The position numbers and the translations under genes were made by a program. From NCBI RefSeq assembly GCF_003841485.1, contig NZ_REFY01000007.1:124001-188000 (forward strand): a stretch of DNA of 64,000 nucleotides. Direction: 5' to 3'. The first letter of the stretch is position 1, and each line of letters starts with the position of its first letter. This document shows, piece by piece, positions 39,170 through 57,013 of the stretch. The notes under the pieces are model-generated. The model was not told the origin of the DNA and did no database searches. It saw only the letters and a list, made by a program, of their open reading frames with translations. Origin of the DNA: Natrarchaeobius halalkaliphilus. GTDB taxonomy: Archaea > Halobacteriota > Halobacteria > Halobacteriales > Natrialbaceae.

Positions 39170-41191
39170 TTAGAGCGTATCCACGTCGAGGATCATCACG
39201 ACCTCCCCTTCGCCAAGCACCGACGCTCCACTGATACCTGGGGCACCGCTCAGGACACCCTCGAAGGGTTTGATCACGACTTCCTCCTGACCAACGACGT
39301 CCGAACATCGCAGGCAGACCTGTCGGACGGAGTTTTTGATTCGGACGATCATATCGTCCTCGGACGGCGAAACGCCCGGAACGTCGAGTCGCTCACTCAG
39401 CGGTAACAGTGGGTACACGCGCTCGTCGTGAGTGACGGTCGACCGGCCCTCGACCGACTCGAGGGTAACGTCTTCGAGTTCGGAAATCTCGTCGATGTTC
39501 TTGATCGGGACGCCGTACGTTTCATCGCCAACCGTGACGAACAGGACGCGAACGATGGCGACGCTGACCGGCAGCATCAACGTGACGCTGGTTCCGGCAC
39601 CGGGTTCGCTCTCGACGTTGATCGAGCCGTCGACTCCGCGGACGACCTGGTTGACGACGTCCATTCCGACCCCGCGACCGCTGACTTCCGTCACCTCGTC
39701 CGTCGTCGAAAAGCCCGGGTGGAAGATGAGGTCATACACCTCCGAATCCTCGAGGACGCGGCCTTCTTCTTCGGTGATGACCCCCTGATCGATCGCTTTC
39801 TCGCGGATCTCTTCGACGTCGAGTCCGCGACCGTCGTCCTGAACCGTAACGGACACACGGTCGCGGTCGCGCTCACCGATCAGTTTGATCGAGCCCTGAC
39901 GTGGTTTGCCCTTCTGTTCACGCTCGTCGGGAGACCCGATTCCGTGATCAACCGCGTTTCGAATGAGATGCATCAGCGGATCACCGAGTTCGTTCAGGAT
40001 CGAACGGTCCATCTCGATGTCGACGCCGGTCATCTCGAAGTCGATCTCCTTTTCTTGCTTTCGAGAGAGGTCGCGGACGACCCGTGGGAAGTTCCCGACG
40101 ATCTTCTTCAGCGGGACGAGCCGGATCTCGAGCACGGTGTCCTGTAAGCTCGCCGTGATTTTCCCGTGTTCCTCGAGTTCGTCTTCGGCCTCGACCAGAT
40201 CGTTTTCCTCGATGATCTTCCGGAGTTTGATCCGGCTCGTCACCATCTCTTCGACCTGGTTGTAGAGCTGGTCGACCTGTTCGACGTCGACCCTGATGGA
40301 CTCCACCTCTTGGCTGTCGTGAGAAAAGCCCGAATCGGATCCGCCAGCGTCCGATTCGGAGCCGGCAGCCGATTCGTCCGCATCGTCAGACGATCCGGCC
40401 AGACTGGCGGCGACCGCATCGGTAACGGCACTGACCGAACTGTCGACGACGTACCGGTTGCCGTCGTAAAATTCCGAGACGTCCTCGCTCGAGACGTCCG
40501 AATCCGTCAGGACGTACGCGTCGAACTCGGCGTCGAACTCGCCCGATTCGATCGTTTCGTTGTCGGGTTCGAGGCGGATCAGCTCGTATTCGTCACCGAT
40601 CGCGTCGATGGCGAACATGGCATCGACGTGTTCGGATCCCGTCGCTTCGAGTTCGACGGTGGTTCGATAGAGTTCTCCGTCGTCGTCGAAGCCGGCATCG
40701 AGATCGGCGGCGAGTGCGTCGATCGGAACGTCCCCACCGGTACTCGGAGGCGACGAACCGGCGCTCGAGCCATCGGTGTCGACACCGTCACCATCCGCAT
40801 CTCCGTTGCGTTCGCCCTCGATCGAAGCCCGAATTTCCTCGATCGTCTCCTCGGGATCCGTTTCCGTGTCGCCGTTCTCGGAGATTTCCCGGACCATCTG
40901 ATCGAGGAGGTCGACTCCGCTAAAGATCAGGTCCATTCGATCGCCGGTCACCGAGAGTTCGCCGCTCCGAATGCAATCGAGGAGATCCTCGACGGCGTGA
41001 GCGATATTACTCGCGTCGGTGTAACCCATCACGCCGAAGTTCCCTTTGAGGTTGTGCGCGACCCGGAACACCGTCTCGATGGCGTCCGAGTTCTCGGGAT
41101 CGGCTGCGTTCTCGAGATCCAACAGCGCGTTGTTTAACTTCTGGATGTCTTCCTGGCTCTCCTGGACGAACGTGCTCGTCACGTCGCTCAC
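39170..41191 (-). CDS. cheA: Chemotaxis histidine kinase CheA
   Basis: A 673-residue sensor kinase without membrane helices. The P1 phosphotransfer His is in FRVAHNLKGNFGVMGY (about residue 46). A Ser/Asp-rich linker carries a P2-like CheY-binding part. P3 dimerisation follows (RVDVEQVDQLYNQVEEMVTS), then the P4 ATPase with HLIRNAVDHGIG, DDGRGLDV and GRGVGMDVVNQVV, and the P5 CheW-like domain. A GTG at 41191 was chosen because it overlaps the cheB stop as GTGA; an earlier GTG at 41200 is possible. It autophosphorylates under receptor control and feeds CheY and CheB. Confidence 0.94.
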   Translation of the reverse strand: MSDVTSTFVQESQEDIQKLNNALLDLENAADPENSDAIETVFRVAHNLKGNFGVMGYTDASNIAHAVEDLLDCIRSGELSVTGDRMDLIFSGVDLLDQMVREISENGDTETDPEETIEEIRASIEGERNGDADGDGVDTDGSSAGSSPPSTGGDVPIDALAADLDAGFDDDGELYRTTVELEATGSEHVDAMFAIDAIGDEYELIRLEPDNETIESGEFDAEFDAYVLTDSDVSSEDVSEFYDGNRYVVDSSVSAVTDAVAASLAGSSDDADESAAGSESDAGGSDSGFSHDSQEVESIRVDVEQVDQLYNQVEEMVTSRIKLRKIIEENDLVEAEDELEEHGKITASLQDTVLEIRLVPLKKIVGNFPRVVRDLSRKQEKEIDFEMTGVDIEMDRSILNELGDPLMHLIRNAVDHGIGSPDEREQKGKPRQGSIKLIGERDRDRVSVTVQDDGRGLDVEEIREKAIDQGVITEEEGRVLEDSEVYDLIFHPGFSTTDEVTEVSGRGVGMDVVNQVVRGVDGSINVESEPGAGTSVTLMLPVSVAIVRVLFVTVGDETYGVPIKNIDEISELEDVTLESVEGRSTVTHDERVYPLLPLSERLDVPGVSPSEDDMIVRIKNSVRQVCLRCSDVVGQEEVVIKPFEGVLSGAPGISGASVLGEGEVVMILDVDTL

Positions 41192-42243
41192 GCCGACCAC
41201 CCCTTGAAGGCGTTAGTTATCCCCTCAGCGATCCGCTCTCCCGGAAGAACCATGTCGACGTCGACGCGGTTTGCAGCGACTTTCGGCATCCCGTAGACCC
41301 GCGACGTCGCTTCGTCCTGAACGATGGCCTTCCCACCTGCCTCCTTGATCGACTCGAGTCCGGCCGCGCCGTCGGCCCCCATCCCGGTCAGAATGACGCC
41401 GACGAGGTTGCCGGAGACTCGCCGCGCTGTGGCTTCCATCGTGACGTCGATTGCAGGTCGAACGTTGTGTCGTTTGGGGCCGTCGTCGTTAGCAACGGTG
41501 ATCCGACCACCCGACGCACGTGTCACGTCGAGATGGTATCCGCCCTTCGCCAGGACACCTTCGCCGGGACCGATCGTATCGCCGTCGGTGGCTTCCCGGA
41601 TCTCGTATGCAGTTCGTTCGTCGAGGCGCTTTGCAAACCGTTTCGTGTAGTGATCAGCCATGTGTTGTACCACCAGAATTCGAAATTCTGCTCGTTCGGG
41701 GAGGTCCGATAACACTCGCTCGACGACCCGTGGGCCGCCAGTCGACGCGCCGATGACGAGCGTCGGATCGTTCGGAAACTCGTCTTCAGCGTCGACAGTC
41801 GGCTGCGTGTGACGCTCCGAGCGCCCTGGATCGGCGTCGATCCCCGAGACGTCGGCGTCGGCAACCGCACGCACGCGATCGACGATCTGATCCTGTTGAC
41901 TCCAGATGTCGACCGAGTTGTCACCCGAGGGTTTCGCGATAAAGTCGACCGCCCCCGCCTCGAGCGCTTCGAACGTCGCATCGGCGTTTCTGGTCGTCTG
42001 GGAGCTGATGACCAGCATCGGCGTCGGATTCTCGGCCATCACGCGGTCGATTACCTCGTGGCCGGTGAGCCCCGGCATCTGGATGTCGATCGTCGCAACG
42101 TCCGGTTCCATCTGCGCGATCATCTCGATCGCTTCGACCCCGTTTTTCGCTCGGCCGACGACATCGATACCACCGTCCTCGAGGATCTTTCCCAGGGTTT
42201 CACGCATGACGGCAGAGTCATCCGCGATTACGGCCCGAACCAT
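41188..42243 (-). CDS. cheB: Chemotaxis methylesterase CheB
   Basis: A 351-residue two-domain protein. The receiver (1-125) has an intact acidic pocket (VIADDSAVM) and phosphoacceptor Asp in TIDIQMPGLTG. The C-terminal methylesterase has the catalytic Ser in IGASTGGPRVVERVL, a His in VVQHMADHYTKRF and a C-terminal Asp in VILTGMGADGA. It removes receptor methyl groups when phosphorylated by CheA. The gene starts one base inside the cheY stop. Confidence 0.95.
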   Translation of the reverse strand: MVRAVIADDSAVMRETLGKILEDGGIDVVGRAKNGVEAIEMIAQMEPDVATIDIQMPGLTGHEVIDRVMAENPTPMLVISSQTTRNADATFEALEAGAVDFIAKPSGDNSVDIWSQQDQIVDRVRAVADADVSGIDADPGRSERHTQPTVDAEDEFPNDPTLVIGASTGGPRVVERVLSDLPERAEFRILVVQHMADHYTKRFAKRLDERTAYEIREATDGDTIGPGEGVLAKGGYHLDVTRASGGRITVANDDGPKRHNVRPAIDVTMEATARRVSGNLVGVILTGMGADGAAGLESIKEAGGKAIVQDEATSRVYGMPKVAANRVDVDMVLPGERIAEGITNAFKGWSA

Positions 42244-42602
42244 CAGGGGAGGACGTCTTCGACCGCGTCCTGAATGGTGCTATGCTCGAAGGGCTTCGTA
42301 ATGTAGCCGTCGCCGCCGGCTTCGATTGCGGATTTCATCGTTTCCTGTTGTGTCGAACTCGTACAGAAGATTACGCTCACGTCCGGATGGAGCGCTTTGA
42401 TCTTGGCAGTGGCTTCGATACCGTCGACCCCCGGCATCACGATATCCATGATAACGACGTCGAGGTCGGTTGTTTCGGCTATCTCGATAGCCTCGACGCC
42501 GTCTTCGGCCTCGGCAACGACGTGAAACTCGGCGGAGATCGCCTCCCGAAGAACGTCACGGACGGCTTCGGAGGTATCGACGATCAAGACGTTCACTGCC
42601 AT
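42243..42602 (-). CDS. cheY: Response regulator CheY (copy 1), acidic pocket altered
   Basis: A 119-residue single receiver domain. The phosphoacceptor is the Asp of DVVIMDIVMPGVDG, the switch Ser/Thr region is IFCTSST, and Lys is in YITKPFE. The N-terminal pocket reads LIVDTSE instead of LIVDDS: the second Asp, which coordinates Mg2+ in CheY, is Thr. The other CheY (49697-50053) keeps both Asp. It is first in the cheY-cheB-cheA-cheD operon. A TATA box (TTCTTTATGC, 42626-42635, minus strand) lies 28 bases upstream, so the transcript is leaderless. Confidence 0.93.
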   Translation of the reverse strand: MAVNVLIVDTSEAVRDVLREAISAEFHVVAEAEDGVEAIEIAETTDLDVVIMDIVMPGVDGIEATAKIKALHPDVSVIFCTSSTQQETMKSAIEAGGDGYITKPFEHSTIQDAVEDVLP

Positions 42603-42724
42603 AGGTCACGATTGTGATGTACGGCGCATAAAGAATTCGGCCATTGTGAACCGTCGAAAGCGATTCTCGAGCGGCAGTTTTGGCCGTGCGAGTTATGTAG
42701 GCAGAGTCGGAACGACCCAGACGA
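42603..42724. promoter_or_regulatory. Divergent che promoter (cheY operon and parA operon)
   Basis: Minus strand: TTCTTTATGC at 42626-42635 about 28 bases before the cheY ATG. Plus strand: AGTTATGTAG near 42690-42700 about 30 bases before the parA ATG. Both predict leaderless mRNAs, and the shared 122-base gap allows joint control of the two chemotaxis operons. Confidence 0.55.
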
Positions 42725-43513
42725 ATGGCGGGACCCGCTCGGCTGTGTGTGACAAATCAGAAAGGAGGCGTCGGTAAGACGACCGTGGCGATCAACGTCG
42801 CCGGCGCGCTGAACGAGCTCGGTCGGAACGTCCTGTTCGTCGATCTCGACCCGCAGGGAAACGCGACGGAAGGACTCGGGCTGCTCGAGGCCTACGACGA
42901 CGAACCGCCGACGCTCCTCGACGCACTCATCGATCCCGAGGCAGTTTCACCGGACGATATCGTCCACTCACACTCCGAGATGGACGTCGTCACGAGCAAT
43001 ATCGATATGAACGCCGCCGCATCAGCGCTGGCCCGACAATCGAACGCCGAAACGCTTCTCGAGGACCTTCTAGACGGGATCGAGGAGGGATACGAGTACG
43101 TCATCGTCGACTGTCCGCCTCACCTCGGCGTTCTCACCGACAACGCACTCTGTGCGACCGAAAACCTCGTGATTCCGGCGCTGACCGAACCGACGAGTAA
43201 ACGATCGCTCGAACTGTTGTTCGACTACGTCGGATCGCTCGAGATGGATCACGACGTCGAAATCGAACCGGTCGCGCTCGTAGCGAACCGTATCGAGACC
43301 ACGCGCGAGGACGAGGAAATGCTCGCGTGGTTCGAAGACGCACTACCCGACGTTCCCCTGTACCGGGTTCGAAAGCGGGTCGCCCTTCAGCGAGCGTTTA
43401 CTGACGGTAAATCCGTATTCGAAGCCGACGAAGAAACCGACATGGAAACCGTGTTCACCGCCCTCGCAGAAACCCTCGAGGATCGATTCTCCACGCGGGA
43501 GGTGACGGCATGA
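42725..43513 (+). CDS. ParA/MinD-type ATPase of the chemotaxis cluster
   Basis: A 262-residue deviant Walker A ATPase. The signature is TNQKGGVGKTTVAINVAG (both Lys present), Walker A' region is VLFVDLDPQGNATEGLG, and Walker B is YVIVDCPPHLG. There is no C-terminal amphipathic membrane helix of the MinD kind, so it is closer to ParA and Soj. Its stop overlaps the next gene, a CheW-domain protein, by four bases (ATGA). In bacteria the ParC ATPase with its CheW-domain partner ParP places chemotaxis arrays at cell poles, and a MinD paralogue does this in Haloferax. A similar job here is inferred. Confidence 0.88.
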   Translation: MAGPARLCVTNQKGGVGKTTVAINVAGALNELGRNVLFVDLDPQGNATEGLGLLEAYDDEPPTLLDALIDPEAVSPDDIVHSHSEMDVVTSNIDMNAAASALARQSNAETLLEDLLDGIEEGYEYVIVDCPPHLGVLTDNALCATENLVIPALTEPTSKRSLELLFDYVGSLEMDHDVEIEPVALVANRIETTREDEEMLAWFEDALPDVPLYRVRKRVALQRAFTDGKSVFEADEETDMETVFTALAETLEDRFSTREVTA

Positions 43514-44562
43514 CCGACGACAGGGCGCGACGGCTTCGAGATCTGCGAAAGCGTACGGCGAGCGATGAGGACGAAGGAACTAAAGACGACGAATCAGCCG
43601 ATGATTCGACGGCGCCGACGGACGGCGAGACGAGTGATGAGACCACAGGCGAGGACAGCGATTCCGACGAGTCGTCACAAGAGAGCGCTAACGGCGACGA
43701 ACGTGGAGGTGCTGAACTCACCGACGGCGAAGACGAAAGTGGCGGCGAAGACGATAGGGTCGATTTCGTCGACGAAACGGCTGCTACGGACGACGATAGG
43801 GAGGAACTGTCATACGACGAAACGGACGGGACAGCGCAGGAACGGCCACAAACCGGAGACACACCGAGACAAGGCGCTGAAGAACCAGCACCGGCGGACG
43901 AAAACGAGGGGATCGATCCCGCACTGCAGGGAGCGATCGCTGACACCTCCTCGATGGTCGCAACGACGGAGACGATCGGCGGTGAGCCGACGGTCGACGC
44001 CTCGGTCCTCAGCCAGGAGACGGATGACGTCGGGAGAGCATCGACGGGGCGAGGGAGCGCAATGCTCGATCAGGGCGATTCCCTGCTCCACTCGACGCAC
44101 GATCGGGAGGACACGATCCAGATGCTCGAGTTGTTCCTCAACGAGAGCCGGTACGCGATCGAGATCGAACGGATCAGCGCGATCGTCGAGATGAAGGACA
44201 TCACCCGGTTCCCACGCGGACCGGACGCGATCGACGGCGTCACCGATCTCCGCGGAGAGATCACGGGCGTACTGGATCCAACGACGATGCTCGACGTCGA
44301 GCAAAGCGAGCTGTCCGACGACCAGTATATCGTCGTCCTCAAACGATCCGATGACAAGCAGAAACTCGGTGTGCGAGTCACGGACGTCTCTCAGGCGGTT
44401 ACCTACCCGAAATCCCAGATCGACGAAACCGGCGCCGTAATGGATCTGGACTCAGAAAACCAACACGAGTTCATCAAGGGCATTATCAAGAAAAACGTCG
44501 ACGAAGAGACGAGCCTCATAACGTGGTTAGACGTCGACGCGATCATCGAAAACACGGAGTGA
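43510..44562 (+). CDS. CheW-domain protein with long acidic N-terminal region, partner of ParA
   Basis: A 350-residue protein. Residues 1-190 are highly acidic and Ser/Thr/Glu-rich, starting MTDDRARRLRDLRKRTASDE, and look disordered. Residues about 195-350 are a CheW-like SH3-type domain (LELFLNESRYAIEIERISAI, DLRGEITGVLDPTTMLD, VIVLKRSDD-like block YIVVLKRSDD). The gene is translationally coupled to parA. An N-terminal tail on a CheW domain is the layout of ParP in Vibrio. The acidic region could bind the ATPase and the CheW part could dock to the CheA/receptor array. A separate standard CheW gene lies at 46413-46847. Confidence 0.88.
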   Translation: MTDDRARRLRDLRKRTASDEDEGTKDDESADDSTAPTDGETSDETTGEDSDSDESSQESANGDERGGAELTDGEDESGGEDDRVDFVDETAATDDDREELSYDETDGTAQERPQTGDTPRQGAEEPAPADENEGIDPALQGAIADTSSMVATTETIGGEPTVDASVLSQETDDVGRASTGRGSAMLDQGDSLLHSTHDREDTIQMLELFLNESRYAIEIERISAIVEMKDITRFPRGPDAIDGVTDLRGEITGVLDPTTMLDVEQSELSDDQYIVVLKRSDDKQKLGVRVTDVSQAVTYPKSQIDETGAVMDLDSENQHEFIKGIIKKNVDEETSLITWLDVDAIIENTE

Positions 44563-44733
44563 GCCACCCGTTGATCGATCGACGAAACGCGTCCCAACCG
44601 AAGGCGGTATCTCGAGGCACAGTCACGATGGACAACGATCCCGACACGGTGGTGACAACGCGAGAACGGAACGGAGGTGCCGAACGGGTAATCTGCAAAA
44701 ACACTTATTTAGCGTTCGATCAGTTTCATGACT

Positions 44734-46359
44734 ATGTCCAGAGCAGATGGTACGGCGGCCACCCCCGACGTCGACCGCGATCGGACCATCCCGTCGTTCG
44801 ACGTCGGAACCGCCGACGTATCGCGAGCGAAAGCGTTGGTTTCGCTGCATGACGAGGACGAAGCGACGCTCGAGTCGATAGCTCACGTCTTCGAGGACGT
44901 CAGCGACGATCTCGCCGGCACGTACATCGACCGGCTACGTTCGGAGTTCGATACCTCGACGGTCGAGACCCGGAGGGATACCGACCGAGCCGCGCTCGTG
45001 GACGATCAACGGCAGTACCTACGATCGATGTCGTCCGGGACGTACGACGCCGACTTCTTCCAGCAGCGTCTGGAATCGGACGGAACCGAAACGGTTCTGG
45101 CCGGTGATCCTGCGGTCTATCTCGGTTCGGCCAGCGTCTACTACGAAGGAATACTCGAGGAAATCGCCGCGGACGTCAAAGCCGAATACGGTCCTGAAAC
45201 CGATCTCGAACCGGTCGACGATACCGAACACCACGCAGAGGGTCGTCCAGACAGGACCACAGCGGACCGGACGATACACGGGGATGTCTCGAGCGCCGTC
45301 GATGCAGTCGTCGAGCGCTCACTGGCGTTCCTTCGGCTTTCGAAAGTCGACGAACAGCTCGCGATACAGGCCCTCGAAAACGCACAGCGAGACCGAATCG
45401 AGGCCTACGAGTCTCAACTCGAGGAGTACGAACGGCGGATCGAAGCCTACGAGTCCCGACTCGACGACACGGAAGGGGGCCAGGAGGTGGTCGAAGACGT
45501 CCGGACGTCCGTTCGGTCGACGCTCGAAGACGTCTCCGAATCGACCGCGGAGATCGCTACGAGTACCGACGATATGGACGGCGTCGCAAAAGAGCAATCG
45601 GAGTCGATGGAAGAGATCGCCGGTGAAGTGTCCGGGCTGTCAGCGACCGTCGAGGAGATCGCGTCCAACGCCGAAGAGGTCAGCGCCACCAGCGAACGCG
45701 CCGAGAACCTCACCGGCCAGACCACCGACACCGCCGAAGAGGCCATCGACAAAATGCAACGCGTCGAAAACGCCGCCGCCGAGGTCACCGACGACGTCGA
45801 AGACCTCCGCCAAGGCGTCCAGCGCATCGACGAAATTATCGACGTCATCAACGATATCGCAGACCAGACCAACCTCCTCGCGCTCAACGCCTCCATCGAG
45901 GCCGCCACCGCCGGCGAGGCCGGCGACGGCTTCGCAGTCGTCGCAAACGAAGTCAAATCCCTCGCCGAAGAGTCCAAACAGGAGGCCGCCAACATCGAGC
46001 AGATGGTCGAACAGATTCAGGACGACACCCAGGACACCGTCGACAGCCTCGAGGACGCAAACGACGAAATCGCAGACGGCGTCGACCTCGTCGAGGATAC
46101 CGTCGAAAACCTAGAGCGAATCAAGGAGTCGATCACCGAGGCCAGCACCGGCATTCAGGAGGTCGCCATCGCCACCGACGATCAGGCCGCCACGACCGAG
46201 GAAATCGCCAGCATGACCGACACCGCGATGGAACGCTCCCAAAACGTGTCCGCGGAGATTGAAGAGATCGTCGCCATCAACGACCAGCTCGAGGAACTCG
46301 TCGACGAAATCGACGCCGAAGTCGACCGACTCTCGAGTGCAACGGCCAGCTCGAAGTAA
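44734..46359 (+). CDS. Soluble transducer (MCP) with a globin-like sensor lacking the heme histidine
   Basis: A 541-residue cytoplasmic receptor (a Met at 44728 is an alternative start; TATA spacing favours 44734). The N-terminal 160 residues align with the protoglobin sensor of HemAT, sharing the [13 protein letters not shown] segment, but the position of the proximal His (His124 of the paralogue at 46903) is Glu. A coiled linker rich in EAYES repeats follows, then the MCP signalling helices with the hairpin tip block [16 protein letters not shown] (written here as [15 protein letters not shown] in the reading). No membrane helix is present. It should signal to CheA but probably without heme. 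Confidence 0.85.
45616..46323 (+). repeat. Long direct repeat, first copy (MCP signalling domain)
   Basis: This 708-base stretch matches 47791-48498 without any gap at a constant offset of 2175 bases. Most differences are single third-position changes, with one cluster of changes near 46240-46262. The identity is far higher than in the sensor halves of the two genes. Confidence 0.85.
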
Positions 46360-46412: not shown

Positions 46413-46847
46413 ATGGCAACGACCAACCCGACGGCTGAACGGACCAGTACGCACGTACTCGAGTTCGATCTCGGTGAGAACCGATACTGCGTCGACATCG
46501 GCTACGTGGCAGAGATCGTCAACACTGACGAACTGACCGAGATTCCGAACACACCGGACCATATCGAGGGGGTAATGGATCTGCGCGGAGAGACGGCAAA
46601 GATCGTCAATCTCCGTACTATCTTCGGAGACGAGGCGGGGACGACGCTCGGTGATCGGATCATCGTATTCAAACGCAAGCGAGATTCGAACGAGCGAATC
46701 GGGTGGCTCGCGGACGAAGTCCACCAGGTACAGGAACTCCAAACCGACATCGTCGACACGTCGGTCAACGGAAGCGGAATTGCAGGAATCGTCCGTCGAG
46801 AGGAGGAGTTCGTTCTCTGGATCGATCCCACCGACGTCCGGGTCTGA
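46413..46847 (+). CDS. cheW: Chemotaxis coupling protein CheW
   Basis: A 144-residue standard CheW. Blocks are VLEFDLGENRYCVDIGYVAE, IEGVMDLRGETAKIVNLRTI and RIGWLADEVHQVQEL. CheW bridges receptors and the CheA P5 domain. It lies between the two globin-type transducer genes on the same strand and is probably co-transcribed with them. Confidence 0.94.
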   Translation: MATTNPTAERTSTHVLEFDLGENRYCVDIGYVAEIVNTDELTEIPNTPDHIEGVMDLRGETAKIVNLRTIFGDEAGTTLGDRIIVFKRKRDSNERIGWLADEVHQVQELQTDIVDTSVNGSGIAGIVRREEEFVLWIDPTDVRV

Positions 46848-46902: not shown

Positions 46903-48531
46903 ATGCAAGAACACGACCGCGAGTACAAGATAGACGACAGCATCAGAAGAACCGTCAACGGAAGCGAACTCACCGCCGAACTCGGTATCGACCGGACCGA
47001 AATCGAGTGGCGAAAGGCGTTCACCCGCTTCGACGATGACGACGCCGACCGACTCGAGGCGATGAAGCCGCTGTTCGAGGAGATCTCGGACGACCTGGTC
47101 GACGAGTTCTACGATCATCTCGAATCTGATCCGAAAGCGAAAGCGGTCATCGACGACTCGTCAAAGCAGATCGACGCGCTCAAACGAACCCAGCGACAGT
47201 ATCTCATGGAACTCGCAAGCGGCGAGTACGGACAGGAGTACTTCGATCGTCGGGCCCGAATCGGCAAGCTTCACGAATTGCTCGAGATGGAGCCGAAGTT
47301 CTATCTCGGAAGCTCGACGATCTACTACGAAGGGATCCTATCGGCGCTCGGAGACCAGAGCAAAGCACAACTGGAGAGTCAGAGCAAAGCGCAACTGGAG
47401 AGTCAGAGCAAAGCACACCTCGAAAGTCGAAGCAGCGACGATCTCGAGAATCGAGCACCGACCGACGAAAAACGGGATGGTACCGTCGCGACAGCGCTCG
47501 AGGATGAAGCCCAGCCGGTGGTGGCACTCGCAGACGCAAAACAAGCCGTCGACGACGTCGTCGAGCGGGCCCTTTCGATGCTCAAGCTGACGTCGCTCGA
47601 CCAGCAGGTCGTGATGGACACCTACATCCACGCCTATTCGGATCTCGAAGCCGAACTCGAGCGCCGGATAGAAGTCTCCGAAAACGTTCAAGAATCGGTA
47701 CAAGAGCTCAGCGACGGCGCAACAATGGTCTCAGAAGAGACGGACGAGATCAACGACCTGGCGGAACAGCAATCGGAATCGATGGACAGCATCGCCGGTG
47801 AAGTGTCCGGGCTGTCAGCGACCGTCGAGGAGATCGCGTCCAACGCCGAAGAGGTCAGCGCCACCAGCGAACGCGCCGAAACCCTCACCGGCCAGACCAC
47901 CGACACCGCGGAAGAGGCCATCGACAAAATGCAACGCGTCGAAAACGCCGCCGCCGAGGTCACCGACGACGTCGAAGACCTCCGCCAAGGCGTCCAGCGC
48001 ATCGACGAAATTATCGACGTCATCAACGATATCGCGGACCAGACCAACCTCCTCGCGCTCAACGCCTCCATCGAGGCCGCCACCGCCGGCGAGGCCGGCG
48101 ACGGCTTCGCAGTCGTCGCAAACGAAGTCAAATCCCTCGCCGAAGAGTCCAAACAGGAGGCCACCAACATCGAGCAGATGGTCGAACAGATTCAGGACGA
48201 CACCCAGGACACCGTCGACAGCCTCGAGGACGCAAACGACGAAATCGCAGACGGCGTCGACCTCGTCGAGGACACCGTCGAGAACTTGGAGCGAATCAAA
48301 GAGTCGATCACCGAGGCCAGCACCGGCATTCAGGAGGTCGCCATCGCCACCGATGATCAGGCCGCCACGACCGAGGAGATCGCCAGCATGACCGATACCG
48401 CGATGGAACGGTCACAGGAGATCTCCGCTGGAACCGAAGAGATCGTCGCCATCAACGACCAGCTCGAGGAACTCGTCGACGAAATCGACGCCGAAGTCCA
48501 TCGCCTGTCCGCCGGTCAGAACGAAATATGA
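46903..48531 (+). CDS. Globin-coupled aerotaxis transducer (HemAT type)
   Basis: A 542-residue soluble receptor. Residues about 20-175 form a protoglobin sensor with the proximal heme ligand His124 in [20 protein letters not shown], the classical HemAT pattern for O2 binding. Three 8-residue QSKAQLES-type repeats follow (residues about 152-175). The rest is the MCP signalling coiled coil, nearly identical to that of the neighbouring transducer. HemAT proteins drive aerophobic or aerophilic responses in haloarchaea. The gene follows cheW by 55 bases. Confidence 0.92.
47356..47427 (+). repeat. Three tandem 24-base units inside the HemAT gene
   Basis: Three in-frame copies start at 47356, 47380 and 47404 and encode [16 protein letters not shown] and QSKAHLES. 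They lie between the globin domain and the linker, and are absent from the paralogue at 44734. Confidence 0.9.
47791..48498 (+). repeat. Long direct repeat, second copy (MCP signalling domain)
   Basis: Matches 45616-46323 base for base apart from scattered substitutions, with no indels. See the first copy. Confidence 0.85.
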
Positions 48532-52842: not shown

Positions 52843-54015
<1,173 letters not shown>

Positions 54016-54262
54016 TGGATTAGCTAAGTCCTGGGAATAGTTCTACTCCACCTGCCGACAGCTGGTTCCTGTAGTGGTACTATCTCGGACAGCTGTTCCC
54101 AATACTTCTCTCGATCATTAAGGTCCCGCGGACCACGCGAACGGGCGCGCAGCGCCCGTGAGCGGACAGCGGGACGCTGAACGTGAATGGAGGCTATTCT
54201 CCTGCCTCAACTGAGGCTAGAACGGGAGTCCACGCTGAATCCCACCGCTTTAGCGGTGGGTA
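54016..54262 (+). ncRNA. Probable TnpB guide RNA scaffold (omega RNA / sense overlapping transcript)
   Basis: The right end after the tnpB stop can fold into nested stems. An inner hairpin pairs ACGGGCGC (54141-54148) with GCGCCCGT (54152-54159); an outer stem pairs GTCCCGC (54123-54129) with GCGGGAC (54169-54175). A final strong hairpin (54241-54260) precedes GTAGCTCAAC. In Halobacterium, tnpB 3' ends give rise to such RNAs, and the guide is the flanking sequence beyond the element border near 54262. The 5' end probably lies inside tnpB. Confidence 0.65.
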
Positions 54263-54393
54263 GCTCAACGCCGACATAGAACTCGTATGTTTCGTATACT
54301 ATCGTCCAGTGTCAGATTGGACATATTGAGACGATTCGAAAACGAGCGTTCACCGGAAAGGGTGAGAGATTAGCAACGTACCGGCTGAAATTG

Positions 54394-55608
54394 TTAATCG
54401 ACCGTATCGGCCAGAACGTCCTTGACAACTTTCGGATTTTCGAGGAGCGTGTGCTCGGTGTAACTTCCCTCGGCACTGCCGCCGCTGTGTCTGGACTGTT
54501 CTATGACATCGAGAAAGGCGTGTTCTTTCAAGAGATCTCGAACTCGGCGAAGAGAAAGGGCATCGGTGCCTTCCTGGCGACAGATCTGTTCGTAAACATC
54601 GTAGACCCGAGTGGTTCGAAAGCCGTCGTTCTCGTGAGAGAGATCGTCAGCGCAGTGTTCGAGAGAGAGAACGGTCAACGCCTGGAGTGCATAGCGTGAA
54701 TGTGGCGTTGATCCTCGAATGAGTTCACGGAACCGGTCGACTTCTGCACGCTCCCGGGCCTGGACGACGAAATCTTCGCGAACGGTGTCCGCTCCGTTCG
54801 CCTGTGCGATCTCGCCGGCGTATCGAAGAATGTCGATCGCCTTTCGCGCGTCGCCGTGTTCACGCGCTGCTAGAGCAGCTGCACGTGGAATAACGCCGTC
54901 CTCGAGAACGGCTTCCCGGAAAGCGTCGCTACGTGCGGTCATTATCTGATTGAGTTGACTCGCGTTGTACGGCGGGAACACGAACTCCCGTTCACAGAGA
55001 CTGGATTTGACGCGCTCGTCCATCCGGTCTTTGTATTTGATCTTGTTACTGATACCCATAACACCGATCTTGCACTCCGTCACTTTCCCAGCCTCGCCGG
55101 CACGAGAGAGCTGCATCAAAATCGCGTCGTCCTCGAGTTTATCGATTTCATCGAGGATAATCAGCGCTACGTCGTACTCCTTATCGAGGATCCGCCAGAG
55201 GCGTTTGTAGTACGTCGCCGTACTAATTCCCTTGTCGGGAATGTAGATTTCGGTATCGTCCGTGTTGACGGAACTTGCGATCGTCTGTGCGGCCTGGGTT
55301 TCGGTCGTGTCCTGTGCACAATCGACGTACGCGAAGACGGCCTCCACGCCCTCCTCTTCAGCTGTACTTACGAGACGTCTCGAGACGTACTTCGCACAGA
55401 GTGATTTTCCCGTTCCCGTCTTGCCGTAGATCAACACGTTGCTCGGACTCTGTCCGAAGATAGCCGGATTCACCGCGTTGGCTAACTGTCCGATCTCTTC
55501 GTCGCGACCCACGATTCTTCCCTCCTCTGGAAGGTGGCTAATCTCGAGGAGTTCCTTGTTGACGAAAATCGGATCCGTACGAATAAACAGATCATCGGAG
55601 TCGGACAT
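54394..55608 (-). CDS. orc1/cdc6: Orc1/Cdc6 family replication initiator
   Basis: A 404-residue AAA+ origin-binding protein. Walker A is IYGKTGTGKSLCAKYV, Walker B is ALIILDEIDKLEDD, sensor 1 is VMGISNKIKYKDRMDERV, and a C-terminal winged helix (from about residue 300, YALQALTVLSLEH) binds origin DNA. A Met at 55620 in the same frame is possible but overlaps an ORB site. The gene lies at the edge of an origin with nine ORB repeats, its likely binding sites. In haloarchaea each origin usually has its own adjacent orc gene. Confidence 0.94.
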   Translation of the reverse strand: MSDSDDLFIRTDPIFVNKELLEISHLPEEGRIVGRDEEIGQLANAVNPAIFGQSPSNVLIYGKTGTGKSLCAKYVSRRLVSTAEEEGVEAVFAYVDCAQDTTETQAAQTIASSVNTDDTEIYIPDKGISTATYYKRLWRILDKEYDVALIILDEIDKLEDDAILMQLSRAGEAGKVTECKIGVMGISNKIKYKDRMDERVKSSLCEREFVFPPYNASQLNQIMTARSDAFREAVLEDGVIPRAAALAAREHGDARKAIDILRYAGEIAQANGADTVREDFVVQARERAEVDRFRELIRGSTPHSRYALQALTVLSLEHCADDLSHENDGFRTTRVYDVYEQICRQEGTDALSLRRVRDLLKEHAFLDVIEQSRHSGGSAEGSYTEHTLLENPKVVKDVLADTVD

Positions 55609-57013
55609 GTACTTGGACACCGTGTTTCCGGTGAATTATCTTGAGCGTTTCGACGCACACACACACACCGGGTTTCCGGTGAAAGTGGGTGCGAAGGTGG
55701 GAAGGGTGGAGTTGAAACGGGGGTTCCGATCGAGATCAAGATAGGTCACCACGGACAACCCAAAATTCGATAGCGAGTTTCCATCAGGAGTTACTAACCG
55801 TAACCGTAACTACGATCGCCCGTAACCCTACAACAGCAATCGTGCGTTCCTGGAAGAGAGTCGGATCTCTTCAGGACTTCGTGAGAAACACTCGAGAGAA
55901 CACGTGATTCAAAAGGACCCCAGTTCATCTGGAGAACCGATTGAAGGATCGATATTCGATCCCTTTGTCTTTAGTAGAAGTCAATGGACTATTGGTTCTA
56001 CGCTTATATATATTTATGGGCTATGGATGTTATTCAATGAACGTTCACTGAATAATATCATGTGAAGAAACGATTTTCTGTTCGGCAGTTGCTTCCAACC
56101 CGTATTCTCTCTGAAATACGCTGTCTTAGAACACTCTCTCTGTTGACCTTCTCATTTCTTTCGGAGATTATGGTTTCCCTGAAGACCACCAATCTCGTAT
56201 TATGCACACCCAGCTTCTCACCGTTTCACCGGAAATCCGGTGTGTGTGTGCGCTGGTTACTTTTTCTTATCTCTGGAATTGGATTGTTCGGGTTGTGATC
56301 TGGATTCACCGGAAACCCGGTGTGTTCTCGTGCTAGTGCAGCGAGTCTCGTATCCTCGTATCACTCCAGTGGCATGGACGTCCACACTCCTCTCGATATA
56401 GTAGCCATTTCGAGCCAGTGTATATCTGACCGCACGGCGACTGTGCGATCAGTGTGTTTTTAAGCAGCGAGAGAATTCCGCCGGTCACGACGGGCGAGGA
56501 TGTCACCAGCCGAGCAGTGACGTCCTCGTTCACCGGAAATGGGGTGTGTTCGTCGTCCAATCTCATTCGCATGGAGCTGGTTTTCCACCGGAAATAGGGT
56601 GTGTCTTTTCCTTCGAGAACCGAGTGCAGTACCGGTATTCCACCGGAAATTCGGTGTGCTTCCGGTTTCGTATTCGTTGACTCGAGTGGCACGTTCGTCG
56701 TACAATCGCCATACGTATGTCCCAGCATGTGCTTGTGTCGTAGCCGCAATCCAGACCGGAGGCGTGTAGTTGTCATTCGAATTGGCTGCGTGATGTTGTC
56801 GTGCGTTTCAGAGGCCCCCTCTCGTTTTGGATACGAATTGATTATCAACGCGCTCGTCTTCACCGGAAATCAGGTGTGCGTTCGCTTGACGATCGGAGTT
56901 TCTCTCCACTCGAGTGTGATCTCTCCTCTTTTTATTACTCCCCGTCACTGCGTTCGGATGTCTTGACCGACTCCAACGGGATGTCACATCCACTTCACCG
57001 GAAACTCGGTGTG
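55609..57013. other. Replication origin with nine ORB repeats and AT-rich unwinding region
   Basis: The noncoding stretch upstream of orc1/cdc6 holds nine copies of an ORB-like element, consensus TTCACCGGAAANNNGGTGTG. Two are inverted near the gene (55617-55635, 55664-55683). Seven are direct at 56225-56244, 56305-56324, 56529-56548, 56584-56603, 56639-56658, 56859-56878 and 56994-57013. Between the two sets lies an AT-rich tract (about 55975-56175), the likely duplex unwinding element. ORBs of opposite direction around an AT-rich core next to an orc gene are the standard layout of haloarchaeal origins. No true genes lie here. Confidence 0.88.
56030..56055. promoter_or_regulatory. 26-base palindrome in the origin's AT-rich core
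   Basis: Arms TTATTCA and TGAATAA flank TGAACGTTCA, itself a perfect palindrome; only one base pair of the whole 26 is mismatched. It lies centrally in the putative unwinding region and is not an ORB. Confidence 0.6.

Follow-up and report, generated by a model that had tools for sequence, protein, structure and literature searches.

A ParA and CheW-domain gene pair in Natrialbaceae: a plasmid-type cassette apparently retargeted to chemosensory arrays

Why would an archaeal chemotaxis cluster carry a gene for a ParA-type ATPase, and why would that gene overlap one for a CheW-domain protein? Such a pair is present in a 64,000-nucleotide stretch of the Natrarchaeobius halalkaliphilus genome, referred to here as the window. 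ParP and TlpT are precedents for ParA-partnered array positioning (PMC5706961), and the arrays of Haloferax depend on MinD2 and MinD4 (PMC11588486). A literature search covering papers outside subscription journals found no link of archaea to ParC/ParP-type positioning. In the parts of the Natrialba magadii genome paper that describe the che/fla locus, two CheW proteins are given and no ParA is listed (PMC3403918). An earlier note on this DNA had proposed an array-positioning system of ParC/ParP design, possibly evolved on its own, in which the acidic tail of the CheW protein would bind ParA. We compared the pair with its orthologues, with plasmid partition cassettes and with the bacterial systems, and the origin of the pair, its probable mechanism and the competing explanations are presented below.

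The gene pair, its neighborhood and its distribution

The parA gene (42725..43513, plus strand) encodes a protein of 262 amino acids that matches the Pfam family AAA_31 (3.9e-42) and also CbiA. The protein contains the deviant Walker A motif KGGVGKT, with the signature Lys13, as well as the motifs DxDPQGN and VDCPP; KGGVGKT is invariant, and DxDPQGN and VDC are conserved, across 12 orthologues. With its signature lysine, Walker A' and B motifs and AAA_31 match, the protein is a ParA ATPase of the deviant Walker A type. A basic RVRKR segment near residues 214–218 aligns with IPRNVR of bacterial Soj-type ParAs, and sequence matches to solved ParAs stop short of the C-terminal segment, the putative DNA-binding part. 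The stop codon of parA overlaps by ATGA the start of a second gene (43510..44562, plus strand), which encodes a 350-residue protein, here called the adaptor, composed of a putative ParA tag, an acidic linker and a CheW domain (44122..44553, plus strand; Pfam CheW 1.3e-22, residues 205–348).

On the minus strand, cheY (42243..42602; Pfam Response_reg) is the divergent neighbor of parA and is followed by cheB (41188..42243; Pfam), cheA (39170..41200; CheA_Halo equivalog NF041336, 1025 bits) and cheD (Pfam). The open reading frames and Pfam matches thus agree with the arrangement described in the earlier note, a parA overlapping by ATGA an acidic-tail CheW gene and divergent from a cheY operon. 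The adaptor gene is followed on the plus strand by a soluble protoglobin (HemAT-like) transducer (44728..46359; Pfam Protoglobin and MCPsignal), in which a transmembrane segment was not found (maximum KD19 0.91), an ordinary, tag-free CheW of the CheW2 clade (46413..46847; Pfam and tree) and a second soluble protoglobin transducer (46903..48531; Pfam, maximum KD19 0.79). Both transducers are candidate cargo receptors. Along with these two transducers and the normal cheW, the rest of the cluster comprises cheF, cheY, cheC and cheR; cheF is the sign of a taxis cluster linked to the archaellum (PMC2666748). A conserved region directly upstream of parA (42693..42724, plus strand), recognized by cross-locus comparison, has a TATA-like TTATGTA about 26–32 nt before the ATG. 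The 45 nt before the ATG (42680–42724; TTGGCCGTGTGAGTTATGTAGGCAGAGTTGAAACGACC-like) are highly similar in 14 of 15 compared loci, and the fifteenth (L069) has only the TATA-like part in common. This region is probably a divergent promoter, and its transcripts would be leaderless. Elsewhere in the window, an IS605-type TnpB lies beside a Cdc6/Orc gene (52843–55620), and the Cdc6/Orc is about 80% identical to the Cdc6 adjoining several plasmid parA genes (L072–L075 and L077); this region near the che cluster is possibly a plasmid remnant.

The pairing is not a chance neighborhood, as an orthologous parA lies immediately 5' of an orthologous tail-CheW gene in 27 further genomes. All 26 further junctions that were read have a 4-nt overlap (25 ATGA and one GTGA). 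This pair, designated array-1, was found in 28/28 genomes of the family with a CheA_Halo-type kinase above the cut-off. In the distribution count, with the cut-off set at >860 bits with CheA_Halo, 33 of 116 Natrialbaceae genomes have a high-scoring CheA_Halo-like kinase; array-1 is present in 28, a different pair, designated array-2, in four, and neither in one. Most other genomes of the family encode only the long CheA (>1000-aa open frame) of a second che cluster. In the genome of the window, such a second cluster (L222; G000:C3:578000-597000) contains two more CheW-like matches besides its CheA, which lies in an open frame of 1,176 aa.

The adaptor tag and the plasmid relatives of array-1

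The conservation of the adaptor is concentrated at its two ends. Across 27 adaptors, mean column conservation is 0.86 for the first 15 residues, 0.32–0.49 for residues 16–136 and 0.84 for the CheW domain, making the first 15 residues the most conserved part outside CheW. These residues form a basic tag, MTDDRARRLRDLRKR (43510..43554, plus strand), delimited by column conservation and by pattern, with the consensus M[TS]D[DE]RAxR[IL][RK]xxR[NK]R; it is predicted to bind ParA and to stimulate its ATPase activity. The net charge of the window adaptor is +6 over residues 5–16 and -49 over residues 17–190. The acidic disordered linker (43555..44109, plus strand) varies in length and sequence among the orthologues, whose total lengths span 337–415 aa. 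A short conserved motif within the linker, ALQGAIADTSS (LxGAIADTS; 43918..43950, plus strand), emerged from the orthologue alignment, with GAI[AP] in 22 of 27 orthologues and a conservation of 0.67.

In bacterial partners of ParA and MinD proteins, a charged, disordered N-terminus contacts and stimulates the ATPase and the remainder of the protein serves the cargo (PMC10241942). By analogy with these N-termini, and because the tag is conserved and the tail is free to diverge, the N-terminal tag rather than the acidic tail is likely the contact with ParA. The acidic region described in the earlier note is present (about residues 17–200), but the conserved basic N-terminus ahead of it had gone unmentioned. 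A role for the acidic tail in binding ParA is unlikely, as the tail diverges in both length and sequence and is the least conserved part of the adaptor, whereas the 15 basic residues are kept and are common to the nearest plasmid partners; that proposal was dropped as the leading idea.

The closest ParAs outside the array group, with 52–63% identity, are haloarchaeal plasmid ParAs. These type-1 relatives are mostly encoded on small contigs, several of them adjoining a Cdc6/Orc gene, and are also found on complete circular plasmid records such as pHS4 of Halobacterium salinarum and a Halomicrococcus plasmid. Nearly all have a partner gene that overlaps by 4 nt and encodes a protein starting MSDDRASRLRSRR..., MSDESRADRLRRRR... 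or similar, followed by an acidic linker. The plasmid cassettes therefore resemble array-1 in their ParA, gene overlap, N-terminal tag and linker, and differ in being plasmid-borne and in that the partner ends in a ...MYLPEDLRxELD...EKNRxFYP... domain instead of CheW. This C-terminal domain is present in 33/33 plasmid partners, none of which has CheW, and in 0/31 array adaptors, CheW being found in 27/27 array-1 and 4/4 array-2 adaptors. The domain, which recurs in partners from several clades of haloarchaeal plasmid-type ParAs (L072–L101 and L198–L216), has no match in Pfam or the PDB; from its sequence pattern, we would guess at a ribbon-helix-helix fold. Location and gene order suggest a plasmid role for the ancestral cassette. 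Haloviruses were also considered as a source and rejected, as the only match in IMG/VR was a weak, partial one to ParA, with none to the partner.

The tags themselves were compared in two ways. The pattern ^M.{1,9}R[AS].R[LI][RKS] occurs in 27/27 array-1 adaptors and in 21/21 type-1 plasmid partners, against 8 of 9,287 background N-termini. Scored with a profile built from the type-1 plasmid partners, the array tags have a median of 8.6 bits versus 8.3 bits for the best unrelated background sequence, a match that rests on about 12 residues. The type-1 plasmid and array tags thus match strongly as a pattern and weakly as a profile. Array-1 has a ParA of the plasmid clade and a partner with the cognate tag, but not the plasmid-type C-terminal domain, and it looks like a plasmid partition cassette in which the cargo domain has been exchanged for the host's own CheW1.

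Origins and comparison with known systems

A second pair was found in a single genus (g8; genomes G010, G133, G159 and G305), where another ParA and tail-CheW partner have their genes next to cheB; in three of the four genomes the pair is divergent from cheA. The array-2 ParA is 54–70% identical to ParAs of other genera and families, and the partners of these relatives are without CheW where read (6/8). Type-2 plasmid-type partners begin EDDFExQxxDVxxRAxKLGVSG or similar, and array-2 partners begin DDEFEDQLSDVGSR...KKAEKLGVS. A profile built from the type-2 plasmid partners gives the array-2 tags 14.7–16.1 bits and the array-1 tags a median of -2.8 bits, and the type-1 profile gives the array-2 tags about -1. 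Each adaptor has thus retained the tag that goes with its own clade of ParA. The type-2 cassettes outside the array group are presumably plasmid-borne, judging from their contigs and the common partner domain rather than from complete plasmid records.

A ParA tree of 86 rows was built, for which a contig scan with a generic P-loop pattern supplied bacterial ParAs that served as the outgroup and as the route to ParC. The array-1 ParAs form a 100/99 clade nested within a 100/98 clade with plasmid ParAs, the array-2 ParAs group elsewhere, in a clade (100/100) of their own with type-2 plasmid-type ParAs, and the ParCs of Pseudomonas, Aeromonas and Oleiphilus (three gammaproteobacterial sequences) lie on the bacterial side. 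AU tests, whose groups were named after inspection of the tree, reject the grouping of array-1 with array-2 (p=0.0012), of array-1 with ParC (p=4.2e-43) and of all three together (1.5e-4). In a tree of CheW domains, whose bootstrap has not completely settled, the two adaptors belong to the clade (94/94) of CheW1, the cheY-adjacent CheW of other haloarchaeal families, and the adaptor domain is apart from three bacterial ParP domains. This placement, together with the adjoining cheY-cheB-cheA, identifies the CheW domain of the window adaptor as a CheW1 orthologue. The array-2 CheW is sister (100/100) to the untagged CheW1 of genome G023, in which no ParA was found on the 30-kb contig examined. 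This CheW1 (L056) has a short, untagged acidic N-terminus and likely resembles the state of type 2 before fusion. At 20 other CheW1-like loci, the N-termini are short and untagged and there is no ParA within about 3 kb; no third case was found. Since both adaptors are in the CheW1 clade, the array-2 domain has an untagged sister and the 20 other loci are untagged and without ParA, CheW1 appears to have been tagged at least twice.

A single origin of the two array cassettes is rejected by the ParA tree (p=0.0012), by the differing tags and because the sister of the array-2 CheW is an untagged CheW1, and a common origin with bacterial ParC/ParP by the ParA tree, the AU tests and the CheW tree. 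The suggestion that the archaeal system evolved on its own is thus well supported. As in the bacterial loci, a parA-like gene adjoins a gene for a CheW-like domain within a che cluster, and the adaptor has the ParP-like layout of conserved N-terminus, linker and CheW-like domain, with predicted ATPase binding. Unlike in the ParC/ParP systems of Vibrio, Pseudomonas and Aeromonas, the ParA is outside the ParC clade and the adaptor domain derives from CheW1, not from the AIF domain of the ParP clade. The ParC/ParP design put forward in the earlier note therefore holds for gene layout, with an independent origin, but the trees speak against membership: the design is ParC/ParP-like, yet the pair is not a member of that family. 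PpfA/TlpT of Rhodobacter sphaeroides resembles the proposed system in that a ParA-like protein segregates cytoplasmic arrays via the N-terminus of its partner; TlpT is a receptor and not a CheW adaptor. MinD4 and MinD2 of Haloferax volcanii are likewise haloarchaeal proteins of the ParA/MinD superfamily that affect the localization of CheW or arrays; they are of MinD type, and no CheW-domain partner for them is described in the literature found.

Proposed function and alternative explanations

We estimate at roughly three in four the probability that the pair positions arrays through the tag, as a plasmid-type cassette now directed at the chemosensory array. In this model, the ATP-bound ParA dimer would be bound by the first ~15 basic residues of the adaptor, which would also stimulate its hydrolysis of ATP, with the acidic disordered linker serving as a spacer and the C-terminal CheW1 domain docking in the receptor/CheA baseplate. 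ParA would coat the nucleoid and be cleared where arrays sit, so that arrays become spaced and segregated; the cargo may be mainly arrays of the soluble protoglobin receptors whose genes adjoin the pair. We are less sure of the nucleoid versus the pole as the site of ParA. The nucleoid is favored because of the plasmid ancestry, the conserved basic RVRKR segment and the adjoining soluble receptors.

A polar variant of the positioning claim, whose likelihood overlaps with that of the claim itself, is possible although rather unlikely: ParA would be bound to a landmark at the pole, and the adaptor would tether and stabilize arrays there, as in ParC/ParP, instead of their being spaced along the nucleoid. 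The bacterial ParP has a similar plan, with an N-terminal ParC-binding region, a long linker and a CheW-like AIF domain (PMC5706961), and Haloferax arrays are polar (PMC6509185; PMC11588486); however, binding to a pole landmark is not expected to have been inherited by a ParA that groups with plasmid ParAs and not with ParC (AU p=4e-43), and the neighboring genes code for soluble receptors. It is more doubtful still that ParA sets array size, assembly or signaling, with adaptor and CheW2 competing in the baseplate and position being secondary. This reading draws on the adaptor being a CheW1 orthologue beside a retained, ordinary CheW2 and on the promotion of array formation by ParP (PMC5706961), but a pure baseplate function would need neither a ParA-specific tag nor inheritance as a cassette. 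Finally, the plasmid ancestry and the Cdc6 gene about 10 kb off, ~80% identical to plasmid Cdc6, would suit a plasmid remnant that still partitions DNA, the CheW fusion being incidental. We regard this as very improbable, given that 31/31 array adaptors examined lack the C-terminal domain of the plasmid partner, that the orthologues seen keep the pair next to che genes and that CheW1 was chosen in both independent cases.

Array positioning by a retargeted cassette thus remains the preferred reading. Whereas positioning is a proposal, the sequences themselves show the architecture, conservation, phylogeny, common tag and domain exchange. As to origin, the partner in a haloarchaeal plasmid pair shed its own C-terminal domain and acquired CheW1 from the host, at least two times, from two ParA clades and in one family. 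Such recruitment from plasmid partition apparently took place twice, which is not visible from the window alone. It is quite probable that these events were two domestications within one archaeal family into array-segregation machines, in which the cargo domain was swapped and each N-terminal tag kept, and that the cargo choice of ParA is modular.

In archaea, the pair would be the first of its ParA/adaptor kind to serve chemosensory arrays, where "first" is provisional and refers to the literature outside subscription papers. A DNA-segregation device of plasmids would have become a cell-organizing system through one domain exchange, and its source would still be visible in present-day plasmid cassettes with ParAs 52–70% identical. 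Because the exchange seems to have occurred twice with different tags, swapping the first ~15–40 residues is predicted to switch which ParA the adaptor obeys. The pair also offers a test of array placement in haloarchaea other than Haloferax and, if the proposal is true, would constitute a natural, repeated demonstration of modular cargo choice by ParA.
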